Shown here piece after piece: positions 6,652 through 61,491 of a DNA stretch of 64,000 bases. The position numbers were made by a program, and so were the translations under genes. Each line of letters begins with the position of its first letter. The first letter of the stretch is position 1. The notes under the pieces were generated by a model that saw only the letters and a program-made list of their open reading frames with translations, did no database searches and was not told where the DNA came from. Location: contig OZ018409.1 in NCBI GenBank assembly GCA_963969595.1, forward strand, positions 46,823,282 to 46,887,281, read 5' to 3'. Origin of the DNA: Neckera pumila. Taxonomy: Eukaryota > Streptophyta > Bryopsida > Hypnales > Neckeraceae.

Positions 6652-9047
6652 ATGAGAGGCTGGAGCTTTGGACAAGCAGGCAACATGCAGGTTGGTAGCC
6701 GCCTTGGTAGTCCGCGGGCAATTCGATGGCGGAAAGGAGAGTTGATTGGGGCAGGTGCGCTTCAGTTTCTTCCTGTTATTGAGTAATTGTATTTATGTGA
6801 GCTCTTCCCTTCAAGTATGTGAAGGCTGTCGCACGGACGAGGTTTGACTTCGTACTAGTCGTCACAACCTTCGGGTTCGGCAATTCTCCCTCGCCAGTTC
6901 AGCGACATGAACATGCTAAGGCGTTATTTGTGATGACTTCCCCACAACCTGTCAATCGTCTTCAGTTTGAGTCGTTTGCTTCCGGCAGTCCCGCAAGATG
7001 TCCACTCCTTACACAACTCGAAAGTAGAATGCTCTGAAGGGTCGACATGCTTCTGGTTTGTTTCGTATGTCTGAAACTCGCTTTACTTATATTGTTGGGT
7101 GCTATGATTTTTGCAGGCGCCTATGGTCGAGTGTACATGGGCCTGAATCTGGACTCTGGTGAACTTATCGCAGTCAAGCAGGTATGCATTGCGCAGAACA
7201 ACATCACCAAGGACAGGGCTCAATCGCATATCCGGGAACTAGAGGAAGAGGTGAAGCTCCTGCAGAACCTCTCTCATCCCAACATTGTTCGCTACCTGGG
7301 CACTGCACGAGAGGAAGAAGCTCTGAACATCTTCCTTGAATTTGTTCCTGGAGGATCTATTGCCTCACTCCTTGGCAAGTTCGGCTCGTTTACGGAGACT
7401 GTCATTCGAATGTATACCCGCCAACTGCTCCTGGGACTGGAATATCTCCACAGCAACCACATTATGCACCGGGACATCAAGGGTGCGAACATTCTGGTTG
7501 ACAACAAAGGATGCATTAAGCTTGCTGACTTCGGTGCATCTAAGAAAGTCGTCGAGCTCGCTACAATTTCCGAGGCAAAATCTATGAAGGGGACCCCCTA
7601 CTGGATGGCCCCTGAGGTCATTCGGCAGACTGGACACAACTGGCAAGCTGATATGTGGAGTGTCGGATGTACCGTCATAGAGATGGCGACTGGCAAACCC
7701 CCCTGGAGTCAGCAGTTCCAAGAAGTTGCGGCTCTTTTCCACATTGGCACCACCAAGTCGCACCCTCCTATTCCTGAGCATCTGTCTGCCGATGGAAAAG
7801 ACTTTCTATTGAAACTGTTGCAGAGAGAGCCTCGGTTGAGACCGAGTGCTGCTGAGATGTTGAAGCACCCATTTGTACAGAATTACGAAATATACAATGG
7901 ACAGGAAGGCGGTGAAGGTCGGCAAGTACTGGAAGAGCATTTGCAGCCCACCAACGATGAATGCAGTGTCAGGACGTCAATGTCTCTGCGAAATTCCTTG
8001 AGGGGTTCCTTCAGGCAGAATGGTTTGGGATCTTGGAGACCAGGTGGTATGTCTGTGAAAGACCTCTCCTTATCCTTTAAGGATCGTCTATCATCCTTCA
8101 AAAAATATTTGAGCATGAGCGGAGCTGGGAACACATATGGTGAGGATCTGAATTGTTCAGTGCGATTGGACTCTGTAAGAATGAATTCTCCGAGGGATTC
8201 TGTGAGGCTAGATTCTATGGAGGACTCTGTGAGGTTGGACTCAGTCCGACGGGACACTTGGAGCGAGAGCTTTAACCCTATTTCAGAGCCTTCATACGTA
8301 GATGGCAGCAAGTGGCGTTTAAATTTGACAACAAATGGTGGATTCTCTGTAAGGCATTCGACTAGAAATGTTTCAGAGATATCGGAAAACCCTGCCATTG
8401 GAAGACAAAGCGTGGGTGAGAGGGGTTGGTCCTTACGACAAGAGGATGAAGACGAAGTCACGGAGAGTAAGATTCGTGCATTTTTGGATGAGAAGGCTCT
8501 GGAGTTAAGAAAGCTGCAAACACCCCTGTATGAGGAATTTAACGATTCGTTGAGGGCATCTGCATTTCAAGAGAACGGAACCACAGCTGGGCCAGCAGAG
8601 AGCTTTGTTGCCCCTTTGAGTCCTGCTATGGCCAAGCAATCAACACCCAGTACAAGCAAGTCACCTAGCAAGGCAAGTAGCGTGAGCGGAAGGTCTGCGG
8701 GTATCCGCAATAGCCAGGAGAGCGAAACCAGCGTGAGCTCTGACAGCGCAGGTGGAAATGCACTTCCGTCGACGAGTGCCAGCTTCAACCCTCTCGTGGA
8801 GATACCGTCCCCGAGGTTGAATGAACTGAAAGGGCTCAATGATGCCAAGCAGCCTTTGTGCAGTCCTGGTCTGAGTTCTAGTGAGCGCCAAAGGTTATGG
8901 AAAGAGGAGCTTCAGCGGGAACTTCAACTGAAACGAGAAGAGAAACGTAAGTACTCTCAAAGGATCGCCCCACTATCTCCCTCTCCCAACTCAAGAGCGC
9001 CTCAACGGTCAGGTAGCAGTCGATTAGCCTCTGCGTCGCAAGTATAG
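6652..9047 (+). CDS. NPK1: NPK1/ANP-type MAP kinase kinase kinase (one intron)
   Basis: A MEKK-class MAPKKK; plant family members act through a MAPKK and MAPK in cytokinesis and stress signalling. Exon 1 (6652-6754) ends IRWRKGELIGAG. The intron 6755-7116 has GT..TTTTTGCAG borders and is phase 1. Exon 2 (7117-9047) continues AYGRVYMG. The spliced product is 677 aa, close to the family's usual length. Visible residues: glycine loop 33-40, VAIK-type lysine 55, HRDIKGANI from 152, DFG at 172, GTPYW at 193, APE at 199, kinase domain to about 291. The C-terminal half has serine-rich SVRLDS repeats (8155-8250) and the family's conserved AFLDEKALELRKLQTPLYEE block (~8478). The ATG at 6652 gives a shorter N-terminus than angiosperm ANPs, so an upstream exon is possible. 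The frame also runs back through intron sequence to 7047, which should not be taken as the start. Confidence 0.92.
6755..7116 (+). other. Intron of the MAPKKK gene
   Basis: The donor GTGCGC follows ...GGGGCAG and the acceptor TTTTTGCAG precedes GCGCCTATGG. Joining them restores the glycine-rich loop IGAGAYG in frame, which fixes both borders. Length 362 bp. It interrupts the ATP-binding loop itself. Confidence 0.88.
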
Positions 9048-12148: not shown

Positions 12149-14849
12149 TGTTGTACGCGTAATCTAGGCGTAAGTATCCTTAACACAAAAATGTGCTAAG
12201 ATAACACGAATTATCGTCCCAGGGAATTTCCGGATTGTATGTAGCATATTCTAGCTATCCGTCTTTTCTTTCTTTCTTTCTTTCTTCTCACCAACTCATC
12301 ATTTTCCGGATACTTTCACAACCCGGAACCTAACCTACCTGGAATCCGGTTTACGTCTCTTCTTCCAATCCGGTTTTCAATACCTCTGTTTCACCTTCAG
12401 AGGGTCCACTAGTTGATCTTTTGAGGGGTAGGGACTTCACCACTCTGGTTCTCCTACAATTCTACAAACACAAACAAGACCACCCAAGTATTCAAGATGT
12501 TGCAGCAAGACGAAAAGATCCGGATCCTCACAACTTCCGGATGGTGATTCCGAACAGCAGGTCATTCAGGAATACTTCATTCTCCCTTACTACAACGATA
12601 GATCTCAGAGTCCGGAACCAATACGGGGGTGTAATCTTTCTAGATGTTAGATGAATTCTGAGGTTGGCAGATCTTCCAGACAAGTGGGGGCTTCCTTGGG
12701 CAGGCGCTTACCTTCGCAAGGCTTGACAACCGGACTCGCTTCCCCACTACTCTGTGATCCGAACTACTCTTCTGGTAATTTAAAGACACTGTGAGCACCC
12801 CTAAGTCAACAATCCAACAACATTACAATAGTACACTCTCGACTCAGACCGTATTCTCCTAAATCCGGATTCCTCCTCACCCGTCTTTTCCTTCCAACAC
12901 CCAAACCACAGATCACCATAATCCGGATACACTGATAGAGCGAAAATGCATACCCGAGGGCTCAAATTTCGAAAAGGGAATGAAATACAATTGAATATCA
13001 ACTAGGAGGGAATGAGGAGCGACTAACTTGCCTGCCCTTAAAAACCCAAAACAAAACCAAAGTCAACACCCTAAAAGCGAAAAGGGCACCCCCACAAACT
13101 GGGGTAATCATACACACACCAAGGAAATCCCAAATAAACCGGAAAGTCCTTATCCCTAAATTTCCGAAAACTGGGCCCACGCTTGGAATCCGGTTCCGGA
13201 ACTAAACTATCTAAATTCTAACCCACCTTTTACAAGTAGTCCCCTTCTAACTACTTGTCTACCCAAGATTTCTTTAAACTCCCGGCTCCCTGTTTGGCTG
13301 CCGCTTACCGGAACTCTTTGCTGGCGTCATCTTGGCAGCTCGAGGCGGATTCTGAAGGGTCGTAGGAGACGTCTCTTCCTCCTCCGTATCCTCTTCAGAC
13401 TCTGATCTTGACTTAATCTCACCAGATTTGGAGTCTTTAATTTGTTGTTTCACTGGCTTCTTGCCTTCCGGTTTCCGCTTTTCAGACTTCCAGAGTTTCA
13501 ATTGCCTCTCAGGCTCCACAATCTCGAGTTCTTCATCTGGATCCGTGTCCTTGGCCTCCATTATTTCCGTCCTCCTCTTTAGCCAGGTTTCCGGCTTGGT
13601 TTCCGGTCTCGCCTCTGGAGCCGGATCTCCTAAGTCAATCAATTCTGTATCCCAGGCAGGTGACGGTTGCCACATATGAGGGAATCCCTCCGGGTGTTCT
13701 CTTGCCAGATTTTTCGTCCCCAAACCCTCTAGTAGATCCCTTCGGATCGGCAACCTCTGCCCAGCCTTTCCGGTTTTCCTTGGAGACTGTGAGGAAGGGA
13801 CAAAAGTATTTACCGTGTCCCACTTCAGGAACTGACTTGAGGAAGGTAACTTAGGTATCTTAAACATGGACTTCTGGCCTGGATCCTCTTGTGTCTCGGA
13901 AGTTCCGGCTCCGTGTTTGCTCGGGGACTCCATGAAGATATCCGGAAGTAGCCCAAAGTCGTCCTTGGCCACATCCAGATGACCTAGCAGTTGTCGAATC
14001 TCGTCCAAAACGATCTTCATCTTTGCCTCTTAATTGACCAGGACTTGCAGCACTCTTGATCGGGTAACAGTGCTGTCATTCTCGAGTTTCTTCATATAAA
14101 GCGCGAACCGGATGATCTGATGTTCCGATTCTTCTACCAACACCCTTGAATCCCTGACTAACTTCAAGGCATCCGTCTCCTTCTTCCGTGCTGAGAGCGA
14201 TTGCCCCTCCGTCCAGTAGAACTTGTTCTTGTAGTGATCCCGTTCCGCCTTAAGCAGCTCGATCTGCTTGTCCTTCTCTTGGAGTAGTGCCGGATCCGGT
14301 CTCTTCCGGAGTTTGTTGAAGATCTGGTCCGTCTCAACATTCAACTCCTTGGCGACGCCCGTGATCATCTCTGCCATCTCGGTGTGCAACTTCCGACACT
14401 GCACCATCCATCGGGTTCCGGCTTCATAGAAGTCGGATTCATCGGAAGTTTCCGGTGATGGCTGGGTTAGGTACGGATTCGGTTCCGGCACGTCTAGACT
14501 CGTTCTTCGTGCGTCTAGATTGGTGGTCTTCTGTCGCTTCTTCTTCTCCAGCGGCTTCGGTTCCGGATCCTCCTCTTCTTCTTCTTCTTCCTCTAGTGCC
14601 GCTTCTTCCGTCGGCTTCAACTCTTTCGTGAATCCGTACTTCAGGATTTGCATTCCGGTCTCATAGGCTACTTGTTCCTACGGAGTCATGAAATCAAAAT
14701 GATGGTACATATGGAACAAGTAGGTGCTGAGCGGACTCTACTTGGCCTTGTTGATAGCCCCCGCCATCTTCTTGACCTTCTGGTGGATTATGGTCGCCCA
14801 GTTCATGACCCGGCCCTTGATTGCTCCAAATATTGTATTCGCCACCGTA
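12149..14849 (-). mobile_element. Giant LTR fragment L1 (Ty3/gypsy, subfamily B), reverse
   Basis: Begins with TGTTGTACGCG, the reverse complement of the LTR 3' end, and follows the same order as the complete solo LTR at 31265-34964. It stops abruptly at 14849 inside the LTR-encoded ORF, where the 5' LTR L2 begins with TGTGAGAG in the opposite direction. The promoter end of L1 is therefore missing; the simplest reading is that the element starting at 14850 inserted into L1. The left flank is ATACA. Confidence 0.85.
13274..14849 (-). pseudogene. LTR-encoded ORF, L1 copy (broken)
   Basis: Homologous to the ORFs inside the other LTRs here. On the minus strand a glutamate-rich segment (EEEEEEEEDPEPKPLEKKK), a coiled-coil region with QIFNKLRKRPDPALLQEKDK, and a charged tail can be read. 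A stop (TAA at 14030 in place of the Tyr codon of the L4 copy) splits it. Another stop lies just upstream of 14653, and the N-terminal part is cut off by L2. Function unknown. Confidence 0.7.
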
Positions 14850-15158
14850 TGTGAGAGTATGTAATGTCAAACTCCGGAATTCCGGATTAGTTTAGGAGTA
14901 GATTAGTGAGTTTTTTTGAAATTTTTGAATACTAACATAGTAACCCGGAATACTTAGCCAAACCAGAAAACTGGGAATGTTCCAGCTTAGCAAAAACTGT
15001 AAAATGGGTAAGGAACGGATCCTAATGGGATCCGTAATCCGGAAGATAATCCGGATGTAGGAAACTTACGACCTAGGTTCCGGTCCGGGATGTGGGTTTC
15101 ATTGGCAAAAGGCGGCGCATTTATGGGCCGTCCCAACGGGCGTTGGTCGCTGGCTGGC

Positions 15159-15166
15159 TACTTAAG
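15159..15166 (+). promoter_or_regulatory. TACTTAAG box, candidate TATA element of L2
   Basis: TACTTAAG lies 170 bp upstream of the LTR ORF start. The same octamer in the same context (a GGCGGCGCATT stretch, a GGTCGCTGGCTG-like stretch, then TACTTAAG, then a CT-rich leader) recurs in L3 (23711-23718), L4 (34644-34651) and L6 (60514-60521). Conservation between subfamilies that differ elsewhere supports a promoter role. Its function is inferred. Confidence 0.55.
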
Positions 15167-15335
15167 TCGTTTTCCTCCATTCCTTTCTCTCTTTCTTCTG
15201 CTCAAGGATGCGTATGTGTTTGCAGGTTTGGAGCGCGCATTAGCTGAGTGAAAGAGTGGTGAGATAGGATCAAATAGGGAGAGAAGGAGAAGAGGGTGCC
15301 GATTGCACCAGGGTAGTAGAGTTCGGTTGGCGTAG

Positions 15336-17269
15336 ATGGAGGAATCTTGCAAACCGACAGTTACGGCCAAGTGGCTCAATCCGGTTATACCTACGGATCC
15401 GAAGGCGCGGGTGCTTTTGGAAGGTGATCTGGACAACATGAGATGTGCGGGATTGTTGCGCAAGCCGTGGAATCTCAAGGACGAGGCGATGATCCACGAA
15501 GTCGTGATCGGAGCTCCAAATCAGTTCAAGTTGACGGAGTGAGGGAAGTCAGCAAAGTGGACCGAGGAGATGTGGACGAAAGTCTACTCGTTCCGGAAGG
15601 CAGGTTTCGGATATGCTTTGAGGAATGACGGGTACATTAAAAAGAAGCTCCGAAATCTACCCCATCCGAAGGAAGGATTTGCGATCCATGATTGCATTGA
15701 CGTGAGGCAGAGACAGGTGCTGGAATTCCTGGTTCCGATCCTGTATCCGGAGAAGCCGACCCGGCTCACCAGCACGTTGAGCAACACTGTTTTCGGAGCG
15801 ATGGAGGATAGGCCGGTACATTGGGGGAGGATATTGAAGGCCGTGGTGCAGAAACTAGCGGACGGCGTGCAAAAGGCCAAGTCCAGCCCGCTCAGCACCT
15901 ACCTTTTCCACCTTTACTACCACAACGGGATCGTGAGTGAGCAAGAAACCAAGGACTACAAGGTAGCTGAGGAAATGCTGAAGTACGGTCTGGCTCCGGA
16001 ATTGGAGAAGCACGCCGAGGAATCAGTTGTGGACGTGACACCGCCAAGGCCGGAAAGGGCGGAAAGTTTGCGCCGGAAGTCGACCAACCCGAACGCAAGG
16101 GAAAAACAGCAAGTTCCGGAAACGAGGGAACCAGGCCGGACCTTCTCAGACCTTGGAGGGAACGAGTTGTTCGATTCCGGAGAGGAGTGGTTCCAGGAGG
16201 CAAGGAAACGATATGAGGAATTGGCGGATTTTGTATGCATGATATCCGAAGAAATGAAGGTGGAGCCAAACGAGATTTTGGGGGAGCTTAGAAAGCGTCC
16301 GGATCCGATCCTACTCAGTAAAAAGGAGGAGTACATCCGGAAACTGGAGGAAGAAAAGATCCATTTCCAGACCGTTTGAGTGTTGCGGATGAAGCCCTCC
16401 AATTCGCATTCAAGAGAGAGGCGGATGTGATGCATGTAGTAAGGACACTGACGGATCTGGTGGGGCAACTCGTGGATCAAATCATGCGTGCCCAGCTCTT
16501 CACCGATAAGTTAGTTCAAGAGGGCGTCGTGATCGGAAGTATGATTCTCAAGATTCTGGTGGATTATGAAATCAAGATGGAGAACGTACTGGCGGAGATG
16601 AGGAAACTGTTGGGCTTTCTCGATCCGTCAGTCATGGACTTCACCAAATTTCCGGAAGTGCAGAGTGCACAGTTGTGGAAGACTCCGGCCAAACTAATCC
16701 CCGCCGGAAGGACTCCCATATCGGAGCAAGGGCTTCAAGCTTTGCTGAAGGACGTTACGGCTTAGTGTGCAGGTCAGGCGGGGCCGTCACGAAGGAGGGA
16801 GAGGTGAACCGTGGAGGTTACCAAGGAAGGGACGGGTTCTGCAGTGGTTCAGGAAACTTCGGTGAAGACGGTCCTGGTCACGTTTCTTCCACGCACAGCA
16901 AGGGTACCAGAGGGGAACATAGGATCCACGGTCCTGGTTTCCCCAGTTTGGACGGATTTGACGAGTTGGATGCCTGTGGTGGAGAATCCGGCCCGGACAC
17001 ATCCGGAAGACTTCACCCACATGGAGGAAGCATTCGAAGAGGAGGAGGAAGGTGGTGAAGAGGATCCGGTTGGAGCTTCATTGGGGCAACCCATTGAAAT
17101 GGAGTCGGATAAGGAGTTAGTCTTATCCGATGACGAGGAAACGGAAGACACAACAACTCCGCTCCTCCGATGTCCAATCTAGACCCGGGCAAGTATCCGA
17201 AACACTCCCACGAAGACGACAGGGGGGACACAAGGCGGTAGCAGTTCGAAGAAGTCACGGAGGAAGTAG
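15336..17269 (+). pseudogene. LTR-encoded ORF, L2 copy (about 640 codons, broken)
   Basis: ATG at 15336 (MEESCKPTVTAKWLNP), end at TAG 17267-17269 after SSSKKSRRK. N-terminal part: a compact domain (~170 aa) with WTEEMWTKVYSFRK and LNFLIPIVYPEKP-like motifs. Middle: a charged linker, then coiled coil (EYIRKLEEEK). C-terminus: an acidic glutamate-rich tail. Damage: a TGA at 15540 where L3 has CGA, a 1-nt frameshift near 16375, and further shifts near 16765-16811. I do not recognise the family. It is not gag, protease, RT, RNase H or integrase, since those are found separately downstream. Homologous ORFs occur in all other LTR copies here. Confidence 0.75.
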
Positions 17270-18382
17270 TTAGTTAGGATGTTTGGATTTTTGCTTAGGA
17301 TTTGAATCCTAGTTCCGAAATGGTTTTTTTGCACCTGGGACCCTAGTTCCGGATTTATTTTTAGAACGAGCCGGCAGTGGATTTTTCGGGTATTTCGAGG
17401 GGTTCTCTAAGTGGCTGCCTGGATTCCCGGGGCTACTTTTTGGCTTTTAGGTGTTGGCTTTTTGTGGGTTTTTAAGGTCTGGCAAGCTTGTTGTGCTAGG
17501 ATTCCCTCCTAGCAGATTTTTATTTTGTATTCTATTCCTTTCTTTTAATCTAAGTGCTGAAGTGAGCTTCCAGATTTTCATCTTTGTGTTCAATTGTTGG
17601 TCTGATTGCTTGTGACTATACTAGAGTGTGAGGGAAGACGGGTGAGGAGGAATTCGGATTTTGGATAGTCGGTTCCATTTGAAAGGTACATTTGAGACAG
17701 TGTTTGATTCTTGACTGAGTGGAAGTACACAGTGCCTTTAAACTACCGTAACGGTGATCCGATTGATTGAGTAGCGGAAGCGAGTCCGGCTATCAACCCA
17801 TGCGGAGGTAAGCGCCCGCCCAAAGGAAGTCGCCACTCTCCTGAAAGGTCTGCCAATCTCGGAACGGTCTAGCACTTAACAAACCATCCCCGGTAGGTTT
17901 CGAAACCCTGTGATCTGTCGTTGTAGTAAGGAGTGGATCAAGTCCTGAGTGACTTGCTTTCCGGATCGGGTGTCTAGGAAGTTGTGAGGATCCGGATCTT
18001 CTTTCCTTGTTGCAACTCCTTTAAATATTCGGGTGTTTAGTTGTATTTGTCAAGTTTAGTGAGTGTGAGAACCAGAGTGGTGAAGTCCCTATCCCTCGAA
18101 AGATCAAAGCGGACCCTCTGAGGGTGAAATAGAGGTGAAAGAAACCATATTGATTTGGAAGTGGAAACCGGATTCCGGATAGAACCGGATTTGGGTTGAA
18201 ATCCGGGTAGTGGAAAGTTCCGGAATTGAGTGAATAGGTGATTGGATTGAGGAGAAAAGAGAATCTAGAAAACTTGAAATGTGCAGCATCATCTTGGAAT
18301 TCCCTGGGACGATAACTCGTGTCATTTTAGCACAACATTGTGGCTAAAGATACTTACGCCTAGATTGCGCGTACGACACTTT

Positions 18383-18400
18383 TGGCGCCGCTGCTGGGGA
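18383..18400 (+). other. Primer binding site, tRNA-Asp type
   Basis: TGGCGCCGCTGCTGGGGA begins four bases after the LTR end. It is nearly complementary to the 3' end of plant tRNA-Asp, the primer used by several plant Ty3/gypsy lineages. This fixes the orientation and the 3' border of L2. Confidence 0.85.
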
Positions 18401-18567
18401 TTCCGATCACGTGTAGCGTATTCTAGGTTGAGTCCAGTAGGAATCAGAAGAGTTGAACTTATTCTAGAATTCCAGGACGGAAGGTGCAGTTCAGACGGAA
18501 GTGTGAGGAAAGGGATCCTTGTGCCTCTAGGGGAGAGAATTTGGACAAAACTGCCAACTATCGCCTC

Positions 18568-19887
18568 ATGAGTAGGTCGTCAAATCGGAATCCGGGTGGA
18601 CGACGACCAGCTCGAGCTGAAGAAGGTCCCAGACAAGCCGTGGTCCACGAAATTCCTGCTCCCGAGTTAGACAACAAAATAGTGGTTGTATTCGTTTTAT
18701 GTATTGTGTCGGAAGGAGGATTAGAACGATCACGAAGTTCGGAAGCTAGAGAGCAATCAAAAGAGGAGAGAGTAGAGCCAGAGAAGCAACCTGATCCAAC
18801 TTCTTCAGAAGAAGAACAGACGGAGGACGAAGTAAAAGTCATGAATTCCAAAACCCGTCTCTGGTACAATAAGTTCAAGGGAGACGGAAGTAAGGATGTA
18901 GATGACTGGATGGGAGAGTTTGAGGCCACTTCAGTAGCCAACCAGGAGGATCAAGGATCTAAGCAACGTATTTTTCAAGGTTTGCTGAAGAGCGAGGCCT
19001 TGAGATGGTACCAGGATGTTCCGGAAGCTATCCAGAATAACTGGGATCATCTGAAGGAACTCTTTCTCCGGACGTTCAGGGAGGTTGGAGGAGAAGCCCG
19101 AGCCCTTGGGAGGCTAATTAAAGTTACCATGCGCCCCGAGGAGTCAGTCCGGAAGTATGGACAGAGGGTGAAGGATTTGATCAAGAAACTCACTACGGAT
19201 GTAGTCGCCAGTATACAAATGGAATGGTATGTGGCAGGATTTCCGGAGGAGATGGCATTCCAGATCCGGCAATCCCATCCCACAACATTACGGGAGGCCA
19301 TGGAGTCGGCCCAGAACTACAAAAATTCGGCTTAGTCGCTGCGGAGATCCATCAAGAAGAGTGCCAAGATGGACCGAGGACGCAGTAAGAAGTACGAGAA
19401 GAAGGAGAAGAGGAGACGGAAGTTCTCGAAGTCGGAACCTTCAACCTCGGCTTTTGGAATGAAATCCTCCTAGACCAAGTCATCTAGCTCCGATACGAAT
19501 CCAGAAGTCTCCAGCAGCAGACGACATTCACGGGGCAGAGAGGAGCGAGGTAGTCAGAGCTTGGTGAAGGTGAAGGTGGAAGATGATGCATCCAAGAAAT
19601 TCATGAAGAATATCCAAGAGTCGTTGGAGGCAATCAAAGTCAATTTGGCCGACAACCAGAAGCCGAGACGGATTGTTCCGACCACTCGAACCAACGTTTG
19701 GTGTACAAGGTGCGGAAGACCCGGTCATTACGCCAGCGAGTGTAACCTTGACCAACAAAAGCAAGTACACTATGTGGACAAGGAAGGAGTGTACTACACA
19801 CTACCCGAACCAGAAGAATACGAGGAGCAGATCAATCTGGTTTTCCAGGTCCAGGCCGGATACGGAAGAAGAAGGGTACCTCAGTAA
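18568..19887 (+). pseudogene. gag: gag of the Ty3/gypsy element (in-frame stops)
   Basis: The probable start is ATG 18568 (MSRSSNRNPGGRR). A retrotransposon gag core lies at about 18840-19320 (WYNKFKGDG, then ALRWYQDVPE, then LKELFLRTF, then MEWYVAGFPEE). A lysine/arginine-rich stretch and a CCHC knuckle (CTRCGRPGHYASEC, ~19705) follow in the same frame. TAG codons at 19333 and 19471 interrupt the frame, so no full-length Gag can be made without readthrough. Gag would form the capsid and bind the RNA. Confidence 0.85.
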
Positions 19888-19929
19888 CTAATCCGGGCAC
19901 CTACGAATCCGTATGCAGCCGGGCCCAGT

Positions 19930-20204
19930 CAAGGTAATTTTCCTGCATCAAAGTTTCCACCCGGATGCTGTTTCTTGTGTGGTAGCCCCCATCATTATGC
20001 AAACAATTGTCCTCATGGGAGATAAGGGAGGGTGCACCATTGCCTCTACCTTGTCAAAATTGTGGGCAATACGGACATGACGTTGGTGATTGTCCTAAAC
20101 CTCAAGTAGCTAGAACTCTTTACAAACAAGTCGAAGTTCCGCCTAGAGACCGATTCGGACTCAATTACGGTTCTGTTGACGGAATTGAGAATTCGAAGAG
20201 TTGA
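19930..20204 (+). pseudogene. Two further CCHC zinc knuckles, shifted frame
   Basis: CFLCGSPHHYANNC (~19969) and CQNCGQYGHDVGDC (~20058) follow the first knuckle but in different frames, showing frameshifts after 19887. Three knuckles in a row are more than the one or two usual in Ty3 Gag. They would bind genomic RNA. Confidence 0.75.
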
Positions 20205-20779
20205 CAATCAAGGGTGGAACTTCCGGAAAGCAAAGAGGGATCTGTTCATAGAGTAGCAACCCGAAGTTCCACCAAGAACCAGGAAAATGAGAGTAAAATT
20301 AGGAAACATAAAAATAGACCTACTAGAAATCCGAATTCGGGTTTCAATGATTCCAATCATTCCAAGAGAAGGGAACCCGTTCACCCCAGAGTGGAGTTAG
20401 AAAAAGGGGTGGACCATAACCCGATCTCCATTGACATTAGCAAGCAGATGCAGGAAAGCTTGGAGGGATCTTCGAGAGATCCGGAATCTGCTTGCTGGGT
20501 CGTCACTTCTGATGAAGTTCCGGTTGTCATCAATCTGGAACTTAAGGTGGACAAATACAATATCGTCTGAGATATCAAGGGTCAGCAGGCAAATGTCATG
20601 ATTAGGCAACTCCTGCATGACAACGTGCACTATCAGAAGTTGATCCGGGACGCCTGGACAAAAAAGAGGAGGAAAATATTAAGGTTACCATTGGCAGCTG
20701 TGAATTTTTCACAGACAGAAGACTACGGAGCGCCGGAACTAGAAGTGGAAGTAGGTGGATGCATCCTGCCGAGAGTTCC
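20205..20779 (+). pseudogene. Gag-protease linker region, decayed
   Basis: Frames at 20214-20570 and 20598-20779 give a charged linker and the lead-in to the protease (CILPRVP). The coding sequence is cut exactly at 20779 by the solo LTR and resumes at 24030 with VDGGSEVN. A stop at 20568-20570 separates the two parts. No domain is recognisable in the linker. Confidence 0.6.
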
Positions 20780-23700
20780 TGTTGTACGCGCAATCTAGGC
20801 GTAAGTATCTTTAGCCACAATGTTGTGCTAAAATGACACGAGTTATCGTCCCAAGGAATTCCAAGATGGTGCTGCACATTTCAAGTTTTCCAGATTCTCT
20901 TTTCTCCTCAATCCAATCACCTGTTCACTCAATTCCGGAACTTTTCACTATCCGGAATTCAACCCAAATCCGGTTCTACCGGAATCCGGTTTCCACTTCC
21001 AAATCAATATGGTTTCTTTAACCTCTGTTTTACCCTCAGAGGGTCCGCTTTGATCTTTCGAGGGATAGGGACTTCACCACTCTGGTTCTCACACTCACTA
21101 AACTTGATAAATACAAACAAACACCCGAATATTTAAAGGAGTTGCAACAAGGAAAGAAGATCCGAATCCTCACAACTTCCTAGACATCCGATCCGGAAAA
21201 GCAGGTCACTCAGGACTTGATCCACTTCTCACTACAACAACAGATCACATGGTTTCGAAACCTACCGGGGGTGGTTTGTTAAGTGCTAGACCATTCCGAG
21301 GTTGGCAAACCTTCCGAGAGAGTGGCGACTTCCTCCGGGCGGGCGCTTACCTCCGCATAGGTTGACAGCCGGACTTGTTTCCGCTACTCAATCAATCGGA
21401 TCACCATTACGGTAGTTTAAAGGCCCTGTACACTTCCACTCAGTCAAGAATCAAACACTGTCTCAAATGTACCTTTCAAATGGAACCGACTATCCAAGAT
21501 CCGGATTCCTCCTCACCCGTCTTCCCTCACACTCTAGTACGGTCACAAACAATTAGACCAACACTTGAACACAAAGATGAAAATCTGGAAGCTCACTTCA
21601 GCACTTAGATTAAAAGAAAGGAATGGAATACAAAATGAAAATCTGCTAGGAGGGAATCCTAGCACAACAAGCTTGCCAGACCTTAAAAACCCACAAAAAG
21701 CCAATCACCTAAAAGCCAAAAAGCAGCCCCGGGAATCCAGGCAGCCAATCAGAGAACCCCCCGAAATACCCGAAAAATCCACTGCCGGCTCATTCTAAAA
21801 ATAAATCCGGAACCAGGGTCCTAAGTGCGGAAAACCCGTTCCGGAACTAGAATTCAAATCCTAAGCAAAAATCCAAACATCCTAACTAACTACTTCTTCC
21901 GCGACTTCTTCGAACTGCTACCACCTTGTGTCCCTCCTGTCATCTTCGTGGGAGTGTTCCGGACACTTGCCCGGGACTGGATTGGATGTCGGAGGAGCGG
22001 AGTTGTTATGTCTTCCGTTTCCTCGTTATCGGATAAGACTAACTCCTTATCCGACTCCATTTCAATGGGTTGCCCCAATGAAGCTCCAACCAGATCTTCT
22101 TCACCGCCTTCCTCCTCTTGCTCGAATGCTTCCTCCATGAGGGTGAAGTCTTTCGGATGTGTCCGGGCCGGATTCTCCACCACAGGCATCCGGCTCGTCA
22201 AATCCGTCCTAACTGGAGAAACCAGGATAGTGGATCCTATGTTCCCCTCTGGTACCCTTACCGTGCGTGGAAGAAACGTGACCAAGACCATCTTCACCGG
22301 AGTTTCCTGAACCACTGGAGAACCCGTCTCCTTCTTGGTAACCTCAGCGGTTCACCTCTCTCTCCTTCGTGACGGCCCCACCTGACCTGCACACTAAGCC
22401 GTAACGTCCTTCAGCAAGGCTTGAAGCCCTTGCTCCGATATGGGAGTCCTTCCGGCGGGGATTAGTTTGGCCGGAGTCTTCCACAACTGTGCACTCTGCA
22501 CTTCCGGAAATTTGGTGAAGTCCATGACTGACGGATCGAGAAAGCCCAACAGTTTCCTCATCTCTGCTAGTACGTTCTCCATCTTGATCTCATAATCCAC
22601 CAGGATCTTGAGAATCATACTTCCGATCACGACGCCCTCTTGAACTAACTTATCAGTGAAGAGCCGAGCACACGTGATTTGATCCGCGGGTTGCCCCACT
22701 AGATCCGTCAATGTCCTCACTACCTGCATCGCATCCGACTCTCTCTTGGATGCCAGCTGGAGGGCTTCATGCGCAACACCCAAACGAGTCTGGAGTTGGA
22801 TCTTCTCTTCCTCCAGTTTCCGGATGTACTCCTCCTTCTTTCTGAGCAGATCCGGGTCCGGACGCTTTCTAAGCTCCCCTAAAATTTCGTTCGGCTCCAC
22901 CTTCATTTCTTTCAATCATGCATATAAAATCCGCCAATTCCTCATACCATTTCCTTGCCTCCTAGTGGAAGAGTTAGGTGCTGAGTAGGCTGGACTTGGC
23001 CTTCTCTACGCCGTCTGCCAGTTTCTGCACCATGGCCTTCATTATCCTCCCCCAGTGTACCAGCCTATCCTCCATCGCTCTGAAAATAGTGTTGCCCAAC
23101 GTGCTGGTGAGCCGGGTCGACTTCTTCGGATACAGGATCGGAACCTGGAATTCCAGCACCTGTCTCTGCCTCACGTCACTGCAATCGTGGATAGCATATC
23201 CTTCCTTCGGATGGGGTAGGTTTCGGAACTTCTTTTGAACGTACTTGTCATTCCTCAAGGCGTATCCGGAACCTGCCTTCCGGAACGAGTAGACTTCCGT
23301 CCACATCTCCTCGGTCCACTTTGCCGACTTCCCTCGCTCCGTCAACTTGAACTGATTCAGAGCTCCGATCACGACTTTGTGGATCATCGCCTCGTCCTTG
23401 AGATTCCACGGCTTGCACAACAACCCCGCGCATCTCATGCTGTCCAGATCACCTTCCAAAAGCACCCGCGCCTTCGGATCCGTAGGTATAACCGGATTGA
23501 GCCACTTGGCCGTAACTGTCAGTTTGCGAGATTCTTCCATCCACGCCAACTGAACTCTACTACCCCGGTGCAATCGGCACCCTCCTCTCCTTCTCTCCCT
23601 ATCTGATTCTATCTCACCACTCTTTCACTCAGCTAATGCGCGCTCCAAACCTGCAAACACACACGCATCCTCGAGTAGAAGAAAGAGAGAAATGAAATGG

Positions 23701-24029
23701 AGGAGAACGACTTAAGTAGCCGGCGAGCGACCAACACCCGTTGAGACGGCCCATAAATGCGCCGCCTTTTGCCAACAAAACCCTAATTCTCGGACCGGAA
23801 CCTAGGTCGTAGATTTCCTGAACCCGGATCACCTTTTGGATTACAGATCCCGTTAAGATCCGTTCCTTACCCATTTTACAGTTTTTGCTAAGCCGGAACA
23901 TTCCCATTTTCTTGGTTTGGCTTAACTGTTCCGGGTTACTACGTCCGTATTTGAAAATTTCAAAAAAACTCACTAATCTACTCCTAAGCTAATCCGGAAT
24001 TCCGGAGTTTGACATTACGTACTCTCATA
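20780..24029 (-). repeat. Solo LTR L3 (3,250 bp, subfamily A), reverse
   Basis: Plus strand begins TGTTGTACGCG and ends ACTCTCATA. It is flanked by a 5 bp target duplication GTTCC at 20775-20779 and 24030-24034. The terminal TG of the LTR has become TA. It is closely related to L2 but lacks about 280 bp near 22976. There is no internal retroelement sequence, so it is a solo LTR left by LTR-LTR recombination after insertion into the older element. Confidence 0.92.
21890..23540 (-). pseudogene. LTR-encoded ORF, L3 copy (internal deletion)
   Basis: Read on the minus strand from MEESRKLTVTAKWLNP (23540) to a stop at 21890 after SSKKSRKK. The N-terminal domain (22974-23540) is continuous here, with CGA (Arg) where L2 has a stop. 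About 280 bp covering the linker is deleted at ~22976-22915, fusing the N-terminal domain to the coiled-coil part with a frame change. The coiled-coil (22394-22915) and acidic tail (21890-22315) are each open. Confidence 0.7.
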
Positions 24030-24556
24030 GTTCCAGTGGATGGCGGATCCGAGGTCAACTTGATGTTGGAAGACACGGCATTCGACCTGGGATATACATC
24101 TTTCCAAGCGACCGATCAAGTCTTGAGAATGGCGGATCAATCACGGCCTCACGGGTGTATCCGGTTGGAAGACTGTCGAAGATTCCAACCCGGATCGGGA
24201 AGGAGACCTACCTCCTCAACTATGTGGTGATCTGGGTAACAAAGGGAAGACCCTTTCCAATGTTACTTGGGAGACCTTGGCTGTATACGGCGAGGACCTT
24301 GGTGGATTGGGGAACCAAGGAGTTCGTAGTTGGGAAACCGAGTGTTCGAATCCCGTGGAAACATGTGGACTACATGGGAGAAACGAGTGAGTCGGATGGA
24401 TACACCACGGATTGGTCGGATCTGGAAGATCCCGACTCAGTACCCAGCTACTTCATATCAGTGATAGAAACGGGTTTCAAGTTTTTGGAACCTACGTTGG
24501 AGATGGCAACAGAAGAATCCGAACCCGTGATCCCTGAAATCCAGTCAGAGGACTGA
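24030..24556 (+). pseudogene. Retroviral-type aspartic protease region of the Ty3 element
   Basis: VDGGSEVNLMLEDTAFDLGY follows directly after the L3 target site. DGGS takes the place of the usual D-T/S-G-A/S active-site motif, a variant seen in some plant Ty3 elements. The flap-like and C-terminal parts follow in a second frame (24155-24556: PMLLGRPWLYTARTLVDWG). The insertion separates the active-site Asp from its upstream strand. Confidence 0.7.
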
Positions 24557-24559
24557 TCC

Positions 24560-26160
24560 TTGGGAGAGATGGATATTCCACTTTCTTTTGATTGGATACG
24601 GCAACAGATCATGGAAAGGAAAATTCCGGCTGTCGATTTCAGTAAACCAGGTCAGGAGGCTTCCTGGGGTGATTTCAAAGAGGACGCGGAAGAGGCGGAA
24701 CCGGAGCGAATCAAGACAATTGTAAGTCCCTCCGACTACAAGAAGGTGGAACTTGCCTCCGGAAAGTCATTCTTCATGAGTAACTCCATGTCCCCATTGG
24801 AGAGGGAAGGGTACGGGAAATTACTGAAAGAATACCTTGACGTGTTTGCATGGGTGGCTTCCGACTTAAGCGGAATTCTGGCTGAGTTGGGAGAGCACCG
24901 GATTGACCTGGTGGAAGGAGCGATTCTTGTCTGACAACATCAATACCGGCTAAATCCAAGATATTCTTTGATGGTGAAAGAGGAGATTGATGCCCTCTTG
25001 GAAGCCGGATTTATCTATCCAGTTCATAACTCGGAATGGGTCTCTCCGATCGTCGTGGTTCCTAAGAAGAAGGGACCAGATGGGAAGATCAAGATCCGGG
25101 TTTGTCAAGATTTTTGGAAGTTGAATGCGGCAACCAGGAAAGACTACTTTCCATTGCCCTTTACGGATATCATTCTTGACCATGTTTTCGGAAACGAATG
25201 TTATAGTTTCTTGGATGGATTCTCTGGATACAACCAAGTTTTCATCCAGTTGATGGACCAGCTGAAGACGACATTTACGACAGAATGGGGAACCTTTGCG
25301 TTCACCCGTATACTGTTCGTATTATGCAACGCTCTGGGCACATTCCAGAGGTTGATGATGGACATCTTTCGAGATTTCCTACGACATTTTCCGGAGGTCT
25401 TCATCGATGATTTTGTAGTATTCGGCTCTCAAACCTCGCATCTGGAGTATTTACAGAAGACTTTCCAGCGGTGTTGGGAGACGAATCTCAAGTTACATCC
25501 TGGAAAGTGCTTCTTCGGAATGCTATCCGGAATATTGCTAGGACATGTGGTAAGTTGGAAAGGTTTGGAAGTGGATACAGATAAAGTGAGAGCTATGCTG
25601 GCCCTTACTGCTCCAACATGTGTACAAGAGATTCGAGGATTCCTTGGATGTGTGGGGTATTACAGGCAATTCATTGAGGGATATGCCCAAAAGGCGATTC
25701 CCCTGACGGAATTGCTGAAGAAAGATACAAACTTTAGTTGGAATCCAGAAAGACAACAGGCTTTTGAAAGCCTGAAGATGGCTTTGGTCAAAGCCCCTAT
25801 TTTTGTCTCCACCGGATTGGACCAAGGATTTCCATGTCACGTTGGACGCTTCCGGATGGTGCCTAGGAGCTATTTTGTGGCAGTACGATCAGGAGCAACG
25901 AGAATGTCCCATTTACTATTCCAGCAGACAGATGAGTCTGGCCGAGAGGAAATATACCACGACGGAACGGGAAGCTCTGGCTGTAGTATATACTTGTAAG
26001 AAGTTCCGTCACTATCTTTTTGGATATCGGATTGTGTTTCACATCGATCATGACTTGTTAAAGTACTTGGTTAACAAGCCCGATCTCTCCGGATGGATTG
26101 CTAGGTGGGTATTATTACTTCAGGAGTTCAACTACGAAGCAAGGTTTTCTTGTCGGACAG
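24560..26160 (+). pseudogene. pol: Reverse transcriptase and RNase H of the Ty3 element, truncated
   Basis: RT motifs: VSPIVVVPKKKGPDGKIKIR (motifs 1-2), FLDGFSGYNQV (motif 3), and the catalytic FIDDFVVF near 25403 in place of the usual YVDD. A connection region (FLGCVGYYRQFIEGY) and RNase H (VTLDASGWCLGAIL, REALAVVY, FHIDHDLLKYL) follow. A stop at ~24932 separates the RT lead-in, and a frameshift near 25830 shifts RNase H to another frame. Coding similarity ends at about 26150 and no integrase follows. It would copy the element RNA if intact. Confidence 0.9.
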
Positions 26161-31264: not shown

Positions 31265-34200
31265 TGTTGTACACGCAATCTAGGTGTAAGTATCCTTAAC
31301 ACAAAAATGTGCCAAGATAACACAAAATATTGTCCCAGGGAATTTCCAGATTGTATGTAGCATATTCTAGCTATCCGACTTTTCTATCTTTCTTTCTTCT
31401 TACCTACTCAACCTTTTCCGGATCCTTTCACAATCCGAACCACAAACTATCCGGAATCCGGTTTTCGTCTCTTCTTCCAATCCAGTTTTCAATACCTCTA
31501 TTTTACTTTCAAAAGATCCACTAGTTGATCTTTTGAGGGGGTAGGGACTTCACCACTCTTGTTCTCCTACAATTCTAACAAACACAAATAACAACACCCA
31601 AGTATTCGAAATGTTGCAGCAAGACAAAAGATCCGGATCCACACAACTTCCGGATGGCAACTCCGGACAGCAGGTCACTCGGGAATACTTCACTTTCCCT
31701 TACTACAACGATAGATCTCAGAATCCGGAATAAGTTATGGGGGTGTGATCTTTCTAGAGGTTAGATGAATCCTCAGGTTGGGAGATCTTCCGAACAGGTG
31801 GGGGCTTCCTTGGGCGGGCGCTTACCTCCGCACGGCTTGACAACCGGACTCGCTTCCCTGCTACTCTACGATCCGGACTACTCTTCTGGTAGTTTAAAGA
31901 CACTGTGCGCAGCTTCTAAGTCAACAATCCAACAACATTACAATAGCACACTCTCGACTTAGACCGTATTCTATTAAATCCGGATTCCTCCTCACCCGTC
32001 TTTTCCTTCCAACACCCAGACCACAGGTCAACACAATCCGGATACATTGATAAAGCCAAACTGCATACTCGAGGGCTTAGATTTCAAAAAAGGGAATGAA
32101 ATACAATTGAATATCAACTAGGAGGGAATGAGGGGCAACTAACTTGCCCGCCCTTAAAAACCCAAAACAAAACCAAAGTCAACACCTTAAAAGCAAAAAA
32201 GGGCTCCTCACAAACCGGGGCAACCACACACACACACCAAGGAAATCCCAAATAAATCGAGAAGTCCTTATCCCTACGTTTTCGGAAACCGGGCCCACGC
32301 TTGGAATTCGATTCCGGGATAAAACTATCCAAATTCTAATCCACCACCACAAGTAGTCCCCTTCTAACTACTTGACCACTCGAGATTTCTTTGAACTTCC
32401 GGCTCCCTGCTTGGTTGTCGGCTTACCAGGACCCTTCGCTGACGTCATTTTGGCTGCTCGAGGAGGATTCTGACGGGTCGCAGGAGACGTCTCGTCCTCC
32501 TTCGTATCTTCCTCAGATTCTGAGCCCGACTCAAACTCTCCAGACTCAGAGTCTTCAATCTGTTGCTTCACCGGCTTCTTGCTTTCTGGTTTCTGCTTCT
32601 CAAACTTTCGGAGCTTTAGCTGCCTCTCAGATTCCACCATCTCGAGTTCTTCATCCGGATCCGTGATCTCAGCCTCCACTATTTCTGTCCTCTTCTTTAG
32701 CCGGGTTTCCAGCTTGGTTTTCGGTCTCGCCTTTAGAGCCGGATCTCCTAAGTCAATCAATTCTGTATCCCGGGCTGGTGACGGTTGCCACATATGAGGG
32801 AATCCCTCCGGGTGTTCTCTTGCCAGATTTATCGTCTCCAAACCCTCTAATAGATTCCTTCGGATCGGCAACCTCTGCCCAGCCTTTCCGATTTCCCTTG
32901 GAGACTGTGAAGAAGGGACAAAAGTATTTACCATGCTCCACTTCGGGAACTGACTCAAGGAAGGTACCATAGGTATCTTAAATAGGGACTTCAAGCCTGG
33001 ATCCTCTTGTGTCCCGGAAGTTCCGGCTCCGTGTTTACCCGGGGACTCCATGAAGATATCCGAAAGTAGTCCAAAGTTGTCCTTGGCCACATCCAGATGA
33101 CCCAGCAGCTACTGTATCTCGTCCAAAACGATCTTCATCTTGGCCTCATAATTGACGAGGACTTGCAGCACTCTGGATCCGATAACAATGCCGTCGTTCT
33201 CGAGTTTCTTCGTGTAAAGCACGGACTGGATGATCTGATGTTCCGGTTCTTCTACCAACACCTTCAAATTCCTGACTAGCTTCAAGGCATCCGTCTCCTT
33301 TTTCCGGGCTGAGATCGACTGTCCCTCCGTCCAGTAGAACTTGTTCTTGTAGTAATCTTGCTCCGCCTTAAGCACCTCAATCTGCTTGTCCTTCTCTTGG
33401 AGTAGTGCCGGATCGGGTCTCTTCCGGAGTTCGCTGAAGATCTGATCCGTCTCAACATTTAACTCCCTGGCGACGCTCGTGATGACCTCTGCCTTCTCGG
33501 CGTGCATCTTCCAGCATTGCACCATCCATCGGGTTCCGGCCTTATAGAAGTCGGACACATCAGAAGATTCCAGTGCTAGCTAGGTGAGGGACGGATTCGA
33601 TTCCGGCACGTCCAGACTCGTTCTTCGTGCGTCTGGATTGGTGGTCTTCTGTCGCTTCTTCTTCTCCAGCGGCTTCGGGTTCCAAATCCTCCTCTTCCTC
33701 TTCTTCTTTTAGTGTCGCTTCTTCTTCTCCAGCGGCTTCGGGTTCCGGATCCTCCTCTTCCTCTTCTTCTTCTAGTGCCGCTTCTCCCGTCGGCTTCAAC
33801 TCTTCTGTGAATCCATACTTCAGGATCTGCATTCCGATCTCATAGGCAACTTGTTCCTGCGGGGTTATGAAATCAAAATGATGATACATGTGGAACAAGT
33901 AAGTACTGAGCGGACTCTGCTTGGCCTTGTCGATAGCCACCACCATTTTTTTGATCTTTTGGTGGATTATGGTCGCCCAGTTCACGACCCGGCCTTTGAG
34001 TGCTCCGAAAATCGTATTCGCCACCATAACCGTAACCCCGGTTAGCTTTTCCGGATAGACGATGGGAATCAGGAAATTCAGTAATCGCCTATGGCGCTCA
34101 TCGATACAGTCACTAATGGTGAAACCCTCTTTATGGTGCGGCGATTTCTTAAACTTGTCTTCATAAAACTTATCCGTCTGGGTTGCATTTTCGGATCTAG

Positions 34201-34964
34201 ATTGCTTCAATCCGTAAGTTTCCGCCCACATCCCTTCCGTCCAAGAGGCCCACCAACGCCTTGGCATCGGCTCGAACTAGTTTGGCATCCCTATAACCAA
34301 CTCACGAAGAAATCTTCACTCCTAACTGTCTAAGGTTGCCGAATGAACCCGATACACCCTAGTTTGAAGAGATCTTCCTCTAACTCTAAGTGCCCAGCGG
34401 AGTCCAACGGAATGACTTGGTACAGGAGTTTGACAGAAGGAATAATCTTCTGCCCCTGCGCCGATGATCCCGCGATCTTCTTGACCTACAATTCTGTGCA
34501 ATTGGCACCCTCCTTTCCTTCTCTCCCTATCCGGCCTAACTCACCACTCTTTCACTCTTCTAAAAGAAATGCGCTCCAAAACCTGCAAGCACATACACCT
34601 CCTTGAGCGGAAGAAAGAGGGAGAAAAACAAAAGGCCCATCTGCTTAAGTACCCGGCCAGTGATCAACACCCGTTGGTTCGGCCATTTAAAGCGCCGCCA
34701 TTGGCAAACGGATCCCTAGTTTTCATAGGCTGGACCCCTAGTTCGTAGGTTGCCTGAATCCGGATCCCATTCCGGTTTCCGGATTCCAACCAAAGTCCGT
34801 TTTTTACCTAGTCTACAAGTTTTTGCAAGCCGGAACTTCCTAACTACCTAGTTTCTACTAAATGTTCTAGTTTGCGGCTTCACTACTACAAATTTTTGAA
34901 AATATTTACGGAATTGATCCTAAACTAGTCCGGATTTCTAAATATTGACATTGCGTGTCCCACA
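31265..34964 (-). repeat. Solo LTR L4 (3,700 bp, subfamily B), reverse, complete
   Basis: Plus strand starts TGTTGTACACG and ends CGTGTCCCACA. Perfect 5 bp target duplication ATACT at 31260-31264 and 34965-34969. It is inserted in the hAT gene between the BED finger and the rest. It is the only complete subfamily B LTR in the window, so it serves as reference for L1, L5 and L6. Confidence 0.93.
32368..34500 (-). pseudogene. LTR-encoded ORF, L4 copy (subfamily B)
   Basis: Minus strand. The N-terminal domain (34267-33560) has WASWTEGMWAETYGLKQS and LNFLIPIVYPEKLTG, then a duplicated glutamate-rich block. The coiled-coil (33558-33109) has QIFSELRKRPDPALLQEKDK. The tail (33090-32368) ends GSSKKSRVVK, like the ends of the L2 and L3 ORFs. 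The start lies near 34450-34500 by comparison with L6. One frameshift near 33560 and one stop near 33110 break it. The N-terminal domain is clearly homologous to subfamily A although the DNA is much diverged. Confidence 0.72.
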
Positions 34965-39752: not shown

Positions 39753-40089
39753 GGAAGATTACGATAGAAATGAAGTTTGCTGAAATCTAACAAAGAGCTA
39801 CACTATGCGAAAGGTGTATCTGCAACTCTTTATTATATTCACACGTGCCCTAAATGCAATTTCAGCAATTACATCAACACTTGTGCATTCACAATATGCA
39901 AACAAGCGTATTTTACAGAATAATCTAAATGTCTACAGTGCGTGTGGGTACCTAGACGGTGGTGTAAAGGGTGAAGACCCAAATTTCTAGCACACAAGCA
40001 CGCATCTAGACGCTGCAAGGCGGATGGAAGACAGCGCAGTGCTAGAAATGATGAGGAAAATAGGCAGAACTACTTTTAATACCCAAAAT

Positions 40090-49627: not shown

Positions 49628-49834
49628 GCACTACAGGTGGTCCAAGTAGTTGTACCTTGAGCATCCCGGTCTCACAGTTAGCTCTTATTTGTTGTCTAAC
49701 ATGGGAGTTTTGCAACTAGAGCAGCCCTCGCATTTGAAACAAGCAACCTTAGAAGCTCCTGGTTATGTGTGTGAGGAGAGCTGGCGAAGATACTCGCTCA
49801 AGAGCAGGTGAATTCCATCTTGATTGCTGTAGTT
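49628..49834 (+). other. Spacer between transposase stop and importin fragment
   Basis: No motif recognised. It probably contains the 3' UTR of the transposase-like gene and, at an unknown point, the junction to the importin-derived sequence. Confidence 0.4.
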
Positions 49835-50965: not shown

Positions 50966-51774
50966 CAGGTATGTACACATTATTTTGTTTACAACCTGTC
51001 GCCATGCTGGAACTTGGAATGCATTTTGTTTTAGCATAGTTGGTGTACATTTCCATTGATGCAAGTGTGTTTGTTGCAATGCAGGTGCAGGGGATTTTGA
51101 GCACCGGTTACAGTAGTGTAGGTTAGCCTTAGTTTTGTTCATGGACCCATAATGTGCAAATTCTGGTCCTATTCACTGTGTTTGTAAACACAATGAGAAC
51201 ATTGTTTTTCTTAACTTCTATTATGTTCATGGATACATAATATGCTAACTTTGGTCCCATTCACTGTGTTTGTAAACACAATGAGCATTATTTTTCTTAC
51301 TCCATCATTGTGTACGAAAACTATGTTTGATGTGTGTCCTAATACAACTCCCACATAAGACTGAATCTTGTGAGATATCAAGTAAAGGGTGACACCAAAG
51401 TTTTTTTTGGAGTAAAAGCTTTCTTCTGTCAAATTTTGTTGTAACTTAAATTGTCGTTGGCCTGAAATTTTCTCAACATTTTTTGGGTCCATGCTGCATT
51501 ATATATGTCGAGAACATTCCCTAAACCAAACCACCCCATTCAATTTTGGGCCAAAATTATAGTAGAATAATTTTTCAATCTAATTTACCATATCATTTAT
51601 TCATAGAAAATTGGAATTGTAAGTAATGCAAGCCCCTTCTCTATTAACCCAAATTAGAAAATTACATAATTGTAGCATGTGAAAAATAAAATAAAATAAA
51701 ATAATAGCCCCCTATAAAATAGTGGTTGGTCGCTCATATATCCTTATTTTTTTAAGGAACAGCACCCCCCGAGG
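50966..51774. other. Non-coding remainder of the left arm
   Basis: A 48-50 bp unit with CACTGTGTTTGTAAACACAATGAG is repeated at ~51173 and ~51260, with GTTCATGGA near each copy (GTTTGTAAAC is itself palindromic). The rest is AT-rich. No gene. Confidence 0.5.
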
Positions 51775-61488: not shown

Positions 61489-61491
61489 CCT
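60682..61491 (+). pseudogene. LTR-encoded ORF, L6 copy, N-terminal half
   Basis: ATG 60682 in a good context: MAETSAQGQKTVPSVKLLYP, then WTEGMWTETYGLTQSGSG, LNFLIPIVYPEKPTRITV. A TGA at 61180-61182 replaces the Trp codon of the L4 copy (VVNWATI). The frame then continues through QKVKKMAMAVEKAKQSP to a glutamate run and stops being LTR sequence at 61489. It is the clearest N-terminus of the subfamily B ORF and defines its start. Confidence 0.75.

Follow-up and report, generated by a model that had tools for sequence, protein, structure and literature searches.

We found that the long terminal repeats (LTRs) of a group of Ty3 retrotransposons in the moss Neckera pumila contain a complete accessory protein-coding gene. 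The window, a 64,000-nucleotide stretch of DNA corresponding to C2:46823282-46887281 of the 339.5-Mb assembly, holds six LTR copies from two families, A and B. The finding is real and unusual; its structural core is strong, and the mechanism that we propose is inferred. That the gene resides in the LTR and belongs to the element is virtually certain, and we hold with moderate confidence the reading as a whole, in which the LTRs of this Ty3 group hold a complete accessory gene that works through the mechanism described below.

One copy in the window is an exact 3,529-bp LTR with TG...CA ends, followed by a primer binding site (PBS) and gag. It starts with TGTGAGAG at 14850 and ends with GTACGACA at 18378, and the PBS-like sequence TGGCGCCGCTGCTGGGGATT begins at 18383. 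The A element to which it belongs has the following features, in which ORF stands for open reading frame, RT for reverse transcriptase and TSD for target site duplication.

14850-18378, + strand: complete family A LTR of 3,529 bp, the 5' LTR of the A element (TG...CA ends, PBS after 18378)
15159-15166, + strand: TATA-like TACTTAAG, a putative promoter element, identical in the A and B LTRs
15336-17269, + strand: family A LTR gene, disrupted by in-frame stop codons and changes of frame; its open A counterparts (L051-L053) encode 644 amino acids (aa)
15543-16379, + strand: longest open piece of the LTR gene, spanning the larger part of the N-terminal domain and the beginning of the coiled coil (one of the rows of profile A2)
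17270-18378, + strand: LTR portion 3' of the gene, probably the end of the repeated region (R) plus the unique 5' region (U5)
18383-18402, + strand: PBS, from the sequence 3' of the LTR end
18457-19335, + strand: gag of the A element (PF03732, Retrotrans_gag, 3.8e-9)
20780-24029, - strand: solo A LTR with the gene, inside the internal region of the A element (TSD GTTCC at 20775-20779 and 24030-24034)
24935-25999, + strand: RT (pol) of the A element, beyond the nested solo LTR (PF00078, 1e-10)

The inverted solo A LTR has identical 5-bp flanks, carries no internal region and splits the A element, whose 3' LTR was not found within the window. The initial annotation had described an extra gene lying wholly between the LTR termini and present in solo LTRs as well, and this description stands: the ORF is found in both solo LTRs of the window, and gag and RT lie downstream. 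It had also assigned a long ORF to each of the six window copies; the copies and the motifs quoted for them are present, but the ORF is unbroken in none of the six, and three are truncated LTRs. A genome search with the window A LTR gave, among the best 40 of 1316 candidates, 31 rows (the query itself included) that cover at least 89% of it at 86-100% identity. The PBS at 18383-18402 is presumably tRNA-Asp-like, and no matching tRNA gene was found: its 17-base complement has 15 exact sites in the genome, and none of the 10 that were fetched was recognised as a tRNA gene by ARAGORN.

Elements were located through a search with the internal region (best 40 of 99 candidates), and the flanks were read for some of them. 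Three have an ORF-bearing LTR at each end, as the initial annotation had expected: the A element at C11:2.87 Mb (L042/L011/L043), with the TSD TATAC on both sides, and the B elements at C3:31.6 Mb (L044/L022/L045) and C3:45.3 Mb (L049/L028/L050), whose right LTRs were read partly. The right LTR of the A element is missing ~650 bp of the gene. The divergence within the LTR pairs is 0.048 for the A element (2,846 columns), and 0.002 (2,017 columns) and 0.041 (1,135 columns) for the B elements at C3:31.6 Mb and C3:45.3 Mb, respectively. The contrary arrangement, with the gene segment between the PBS and the 3' LTR, was seen in none of the elements examined.

These elements are Ty3 (Metaviridae) LTR retrotransposons, an assignment that is well supported by the TG...CA LTRs, the 5-bp TSD, the PBS, the polypurine tract (PPT), and gag followed by RT-RNase H-integrase. 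The PBS lies 3' of the left LTRs in the window, L003, L040, L042, L044, L048 and L049, and a PPT-like sequence, gaaaaaggggtca, lies 5' of the right LTRs in L039, L043, L045 and L050. The A internal region in L039 encodes RVT_1 (9.1e-6, below the curated cut-off), RT_RNaseH, Integrase_H2C2 and rve in this order. By eye, the integrase end in L041, L045 and L050 shows a GPY/F-like module (RWMGPYRV...VKKY) with a short tail before the PPT; L039 has a stop within the stretch matching the integrase tail. The host group appears to consist of Ty3 elements without a recognised chromodomain, as judged by eye from the integrase tail. A tRNA-Asp-like PBS is typical of the OTA (Ogre/Tat/Athila) branch.

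Protein searches of the genome returned 151 matches with the B query and 139 rows with the A query. A frame of at least 600 aa with a stop-free match was present in 13 rows among the B-search matches listed and in 4 of the 139 A-search rows, including one B copy that the B search had already given, so that open frames occur at 16 places among the matches listed; 12 of these were fetched. The encoded protein is longer than the ~600 aa given in the initial annotation, with 644 aa in the three open A copies and 678-684 aa in seven of the nine open B copies, the other two (L054 and L059) being without the usual start and giving 620 and 632 aa from the first methionine. L052 and L053 are near-identical, lie 28 kb apart in opposite orientation and share the same flanks, indicating that one insertion was duplicated. 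Both LTR ends could be resolved in ten of the 12 open copies, with neither PBS nor PPT adjacent; these are solo LTRs, six with identical 5-bp TSDs, two with one mismatch, and L052/L053 with two mismatches. The remaining two are not resolved at both ends, as only the 5' side of L054 was fetched and the 3' end of L055 is absent from the fetched stretch. Seven A copies from outside the window (L002-L008) were also examined: the 5-bp duplications are identical in four of them and differ at one position in L007, a PBS follows L003, and L002 has no duplication. Solo LTRs do keep the gene, but the idea that each of them might function as a gene in its own right is not supported, with open frames at only 16 places among the matches listed.

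Families A (3.5 kb) and B (3.7 kb) are documented by two-LTR elements and TSD-flanked solo LTRs, and homologous ORFs are apparently carried by four LTR families, A, B, C and D. Family D, which is known from its 5' parts and is probably an LTR family, has one unit within an A LTR (L039) and another within a B LTR (L045); the two units start with TGTYGCAACC and are 86% identical over 761 bases, and the L045 unit encodes a homologue that matches protein P0001 at 41% (E 7e-65). Family C is nested in the L039 D unit and has an ORF 26% identical to the B protein (E 3e-26). Another copy of family C lies on C8 within a B LTR and is a solo LTR of 3,928 bp (3.9 kb) with TG...CA ends and the TSD ACAGA.

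In alignments, the LTR protein consists of a conserved helical N-terminal domain, a coiled coil, a variable part and a basic SSKK tail; its last 40 residues include 9 lysines or arginines versus 0-1 aspartates or glutamates, with an isoelectric point of 11-12. Structure prediction of the N-terminal domain, as put forward in the initial annotation, gave a confident model (predicted local distance difference test score 92.5, predicted template modelling score 0.89), for which neither a Pfam match nor a match among PDB structures was found. Profile A2 has 103 homologous database proteins, which are known as protein sequences without genomic context. There was no profile match to Transposase_32 (PF20167, a putative plant transposon protein), in scans of which one of three was also silent for the controls, and no relatives of the LTR protein were found in viral contigs or prokaryote genomes. 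The A and B LTR proteins are 39% identical, and the A and B gag proteins share 82-86% aa identity.

We estimated the ratio of nonsynonymous to synonymous substitution rates (dN/dS) by the pairwise Nei-Gojobori method, following, for decayed copies, the codon columns of an open copy in MAFFT alignments. The nine open B copies (36 pairs) gave 0.16-0.35 with a median of 0.20 and the open A copies gave 0.33, all well below the value near 1 that had been set beforehand as speaking against the gene. Among decayed copies, the median was 0.28 for A (45 pairs), 0.33 for B1 (27 of 28 pairs, one being excluded for low dS) and 0.19 for B2 (6 pairs). When the same alignments were shifted by 1 or 2 bases as a control, the medians were 0.65-1.40. 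For the gag core (164 codons), the median was 0.20 in A (55 pairs). It was 0.18 in the non-A group, in which 44 of 78 pairs had a usable in-frame dS and which comprises copies whose identity to the window gag is below 84%, a few being further removed than B. In the replicating lineages, purifying selection thus acts on the LTR gene with about the strength seen for gag.

For the mechanism, we propose that transcription would start just 3' of the conserved TACTTAAG and end 3' of the ORF, giving a long R region. Genomic RNA would then have the LTR gene as its first ORF, and a solo LTR would comprise promoter, gene and terminator; placed in the LTR, the gene would survive loss of the internal region. 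The TATA-like sequence lies ~170 bases upstream of the ATG in a 5' stretch of ~450 bases that is ~70% identical between the A and B LTRs, and T-rich sequence is found 3' of the stop codon; together with the geometry of the rice Retrosat2 LTR, these positions suggest that the gene is in R. The Retrosat2 LTR is divided by its authors into U3 (the unique 3' region) at 1-244, R at 245-2266 (~2,020 bases) and U5 to 3292 (PMC3485330). For a gene inside R that would be expressed from solo LTRs, we see about an even chance. An accessory gene can also sit in U3 of the LTR, as does sag (superantigen) of mouse mammary tumour virus (MMTV), an animal betaretrovirus. On this model, which we consider unlikely though worth serious attention, the promoter would be 3' of the ORF, the gene would be read from the 3' LTR or via splicing, and the solo LTR would be silent. 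The ~940 bases 3' of the ORF are 68% identical between A and B and could hold a promoter, and a consensus-like splice donor (GGAG/GTAAGC, noted by eye) is conserved 3' of the ORF; however, the conserved TACTTAAG and its neighbourhood are 5' of the ORF, which argues for R, and the rice LTR, also longer than 3 kb, was assigned a short U3 and a long R (PMC3485330).

We are less sure of what the product does. With its helical domain, coiled coil and basic tail, it might be a nuclear DNA-binding regulator that acts in trans, a role suggested by the fast divergence between families and a family-wide motif in addition to the coiled coil and tail. Such a regulator would target copies marked by (A/T)CCGGA sites, for example opposing silencing as does VANC of Arabidopsis. 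In the window there are 91 copies of the palindrome TCCGGA, where dinucleotide shuffles predict 12.8 (the largest of 100 shuffles had 23), and 90 of the 91 sites are in A or B sequence, in the following stretches.

12229-26093, 31417-34934, 40710-42375 and 60231-61109: TCCGGA-rich stretches in A and B sequence

Three other stretches of the window (26 kb) contain one TCCGGA versus ~3.4 expected. The motif ranks first among 64 palindromes in the A and B LTRs, is enriched 18-28x in their noncoding ends, and occurs 13-22 times in each of eight further LTR copies versus 1.1-1.7 expected. Family C prefers ACCGGA (9.8x), and family D prefers ATCCGG (7.6x) and ACCGGA (7.2x). As the CCGG core holds CG and CHG methylation sites, retention of the motif would be notable. 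Self-recognition through the motif is nevertheless a tentative proposal that we regard as doubtful.

Several observations weigh against our reading. An unbroken LTR gene was present in none of the three two-LTR elements examined, and the youngest pair (L044/L045 at C3:31.6 Mb) has the same broken ORF in both LTRs, implying either that the gene is not needed in cis or that the LTRs were homogenised. TCCGGA is enriched inside the ORF and 8.6x in the internal region and pol as well, so the motif is not confined to regulatory DNA; it reaches only 2.6x in family C and 3.9x in family D, and it is common to A and B despite the low identity of their proteins. In addition, the sites are dispersed, in contrast to the targets of VANC, which are noncoding and often tandem repeats. 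The most far-reaching form of the proposal is less likely still: a solo LTR would be a self-contained selfish gene whose protein recognises (A/T)CCGGA, such remnants of recombination would keep their own family active in trans, and placement in the LTR would be an adaptation to rapid solo-LTR formation. As a separate observation, L044/L045 could be an already defective copy that was recently inserted, or the result of LTR homogenisation.

The same protein could instead be a structural or packaging component of the particle, a gag-like accessory and not a regulator. The coiled coil, the basic tail and its evolution with the element are all compatible with such a role, which we judge to be unlikely to a similar degree as the U3 placement, since the divergence between A and B is far faster than that of gag and no fold match to solved capsids was detected (Foldseek against solved structures including capsids, best E 1.0, a weak match that does not prove a different fold).

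It is very unlikely that the intact solo LTRs have been co-opted as host genes and are now under selection in place. The predominance of solo LTRs among the open copies that were checked (10 of 12) would fit co-option, and one of these ten, L057, with 684 open codons, has a closest relative of at most 92% identity among the best 40 of 648 candidates. The dN/dS values of decayed and open copies are alike, which places the selection seen in the replicating lineages. Changes unique to one copy gave nonsynonymous to synonymous counts (N/S) whose pooled values are lower in open copies for A (31/28 versus 209/122 in decayed copies) and B1 (73/57 versus 151/84), but B2 is reversed (84/48 versus 115/95), the per-copy ranges overlap (0.83-3.17 for open and 1.00-4.00 for decayed copies), and the test is weak because it uses only columns where the other copies agree. 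Younger insertion by itself would lower N/S, and the near-perfect TSDs fit fairly recent insertion. Finally, a chance ORF or the relic of an ancient captured gene drifting in the LTR, to which the many broken copies among the matches listed might point, is scarcely credible and is already contradicted by dN/dS values of ~0.2-0.3 versus ~1 in the shifted frames and by the homologues in four families and among database proteins.

To our knowledge, the closest LTR-borne gene is MMTV sag, which is likewise a whole accessory gene wholly inside the LTR and duplicated with it. The moss protein is unrelated to that of sag, and the moss gene most likely lies 3' of the LTR promoter instead of in U3, fills more than half of a 3.5-3.7 kb LTR and is found at hundreds of places (151 + 139 matches), mostly broken, with many of the checked LTRs being solo. 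The rice elements Retrosat2, RIRE3 and RIRE8 are also large Ty3 elements with ~3 kb LTRs, a ~2 kb R and an extra ORF (ORF0) upstream of gag-pol that is poorly conserved between families (PMC3485330). They differ in that the authors, in the part of the report at hand, do not put the Retrosat2 ORF0 in the LTR, a comparison made by description only (PMC3485330). The LTR protein gave no Pfam match to the extra-ORF families of OTA elements. Extra ORFs of OTA elements other than Retand have an internal position. Those described for OTA elements include the Ogre PMD, the Retand Transposase_28/TRP28, for which DNA binding was suggested, and the Athila ORF-1, and resemble the moss gene as accessory ORFs of unknown function in non-chromodomain Ty3 elements; in Retand, the extra ORFs differ in being antisense and between pol and the 3' LTR (PMC6317226, PMC11963269). 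The moss protein, known from its sequence, is likened to VANC by analogy, and homology was checked against Pfam only. VANDALs are not known to be LTR elements. The likeness is that VANC is encoded by an element (Arabidopsis VANDAL), diverges fast and has its motifs in noncoding DNA; its binding and hypomethylation have been demonstrated and its targets are often tandem repeats (PMC5735166, PMC10398659). A literature search in open-licence papers turned up no account of a protein-coding gene within plant LTRs.

LTRs are usually viewed as regulatory sequence, and solo LTRs as inert leftovers. Here the LTR includes a conserved protein gene, and so what commonly remains after an element is lost retains, in a minority of copies, an open gene. 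This raises two testable questions: can solo LTRs provide functions in trans to the elements of their family, and is sequence-specific self-recognition encoded by plant retrotransposons? Where LTRs are masked as noncoding, annotation can overlook a family of genes with hundreds of copies, most of them broken.

The other LTR copies in the window belong to family B.

31265-34964, - strand: solo B LTR of 3.70 kb with TSD AGTAT; gene pieces at 34276-33560 and 33108-32368
12149-14849, - strand: B LTR piece that includes the gene (14677-13274) and is cut short at 14849/14850 by the A element
40628-42568, - strand: B LTR piece containing the gene's 3' half, which is open at about 42582-41950
60200-61490, + strand: B LTR piece, the 5' part with the gene start, ending at the inverted-repeat arm at 61489

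The last of these abuts one of two inverted-repeat arms (49263-51774 and 61489-64000), which are at least 2,512 bases long, 100% complementary and 9.7 kb apart, one of them reaching the end of the window. Another repeat family is represented by a 533-aa ORF at 38157-39758 on the - strand (MAPQKVKKTKKK...); this family has eight further rows of near full length (95-96% identity), and its first-look candidates number 12,366. An ORF start resembling that of this ORF flanks an A LTR in L005. A 669-aa open frame at 7038-9047 on the + strand was labelled by eye as a plant MAP3K (NPK1/ANP)-like kinase, and 975-1607 is a long simple repeat in which one frame is a run of LFIY residues.

Contig C11 (12.3 Mb) makes up 3.6% of the assembly, yet holds 10 of the 31 near-complete A LTR rows (best 40 candidates) and 20 of the 40 internal-region rows (best 40 of 99), some of which are pieces of one copy, and only 1 of 44 family C rows. 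It may be a sex chromosome or another non-recombining chromosome. Inverted neighbouring LTR pairs and inverted duplications were noted at C11:3617023-3624239, C11:9527706-9534716, C11:12225190-12231798 and C11:2753059-2782766, some of them with equal scores or with near-identical sequence and flanks.

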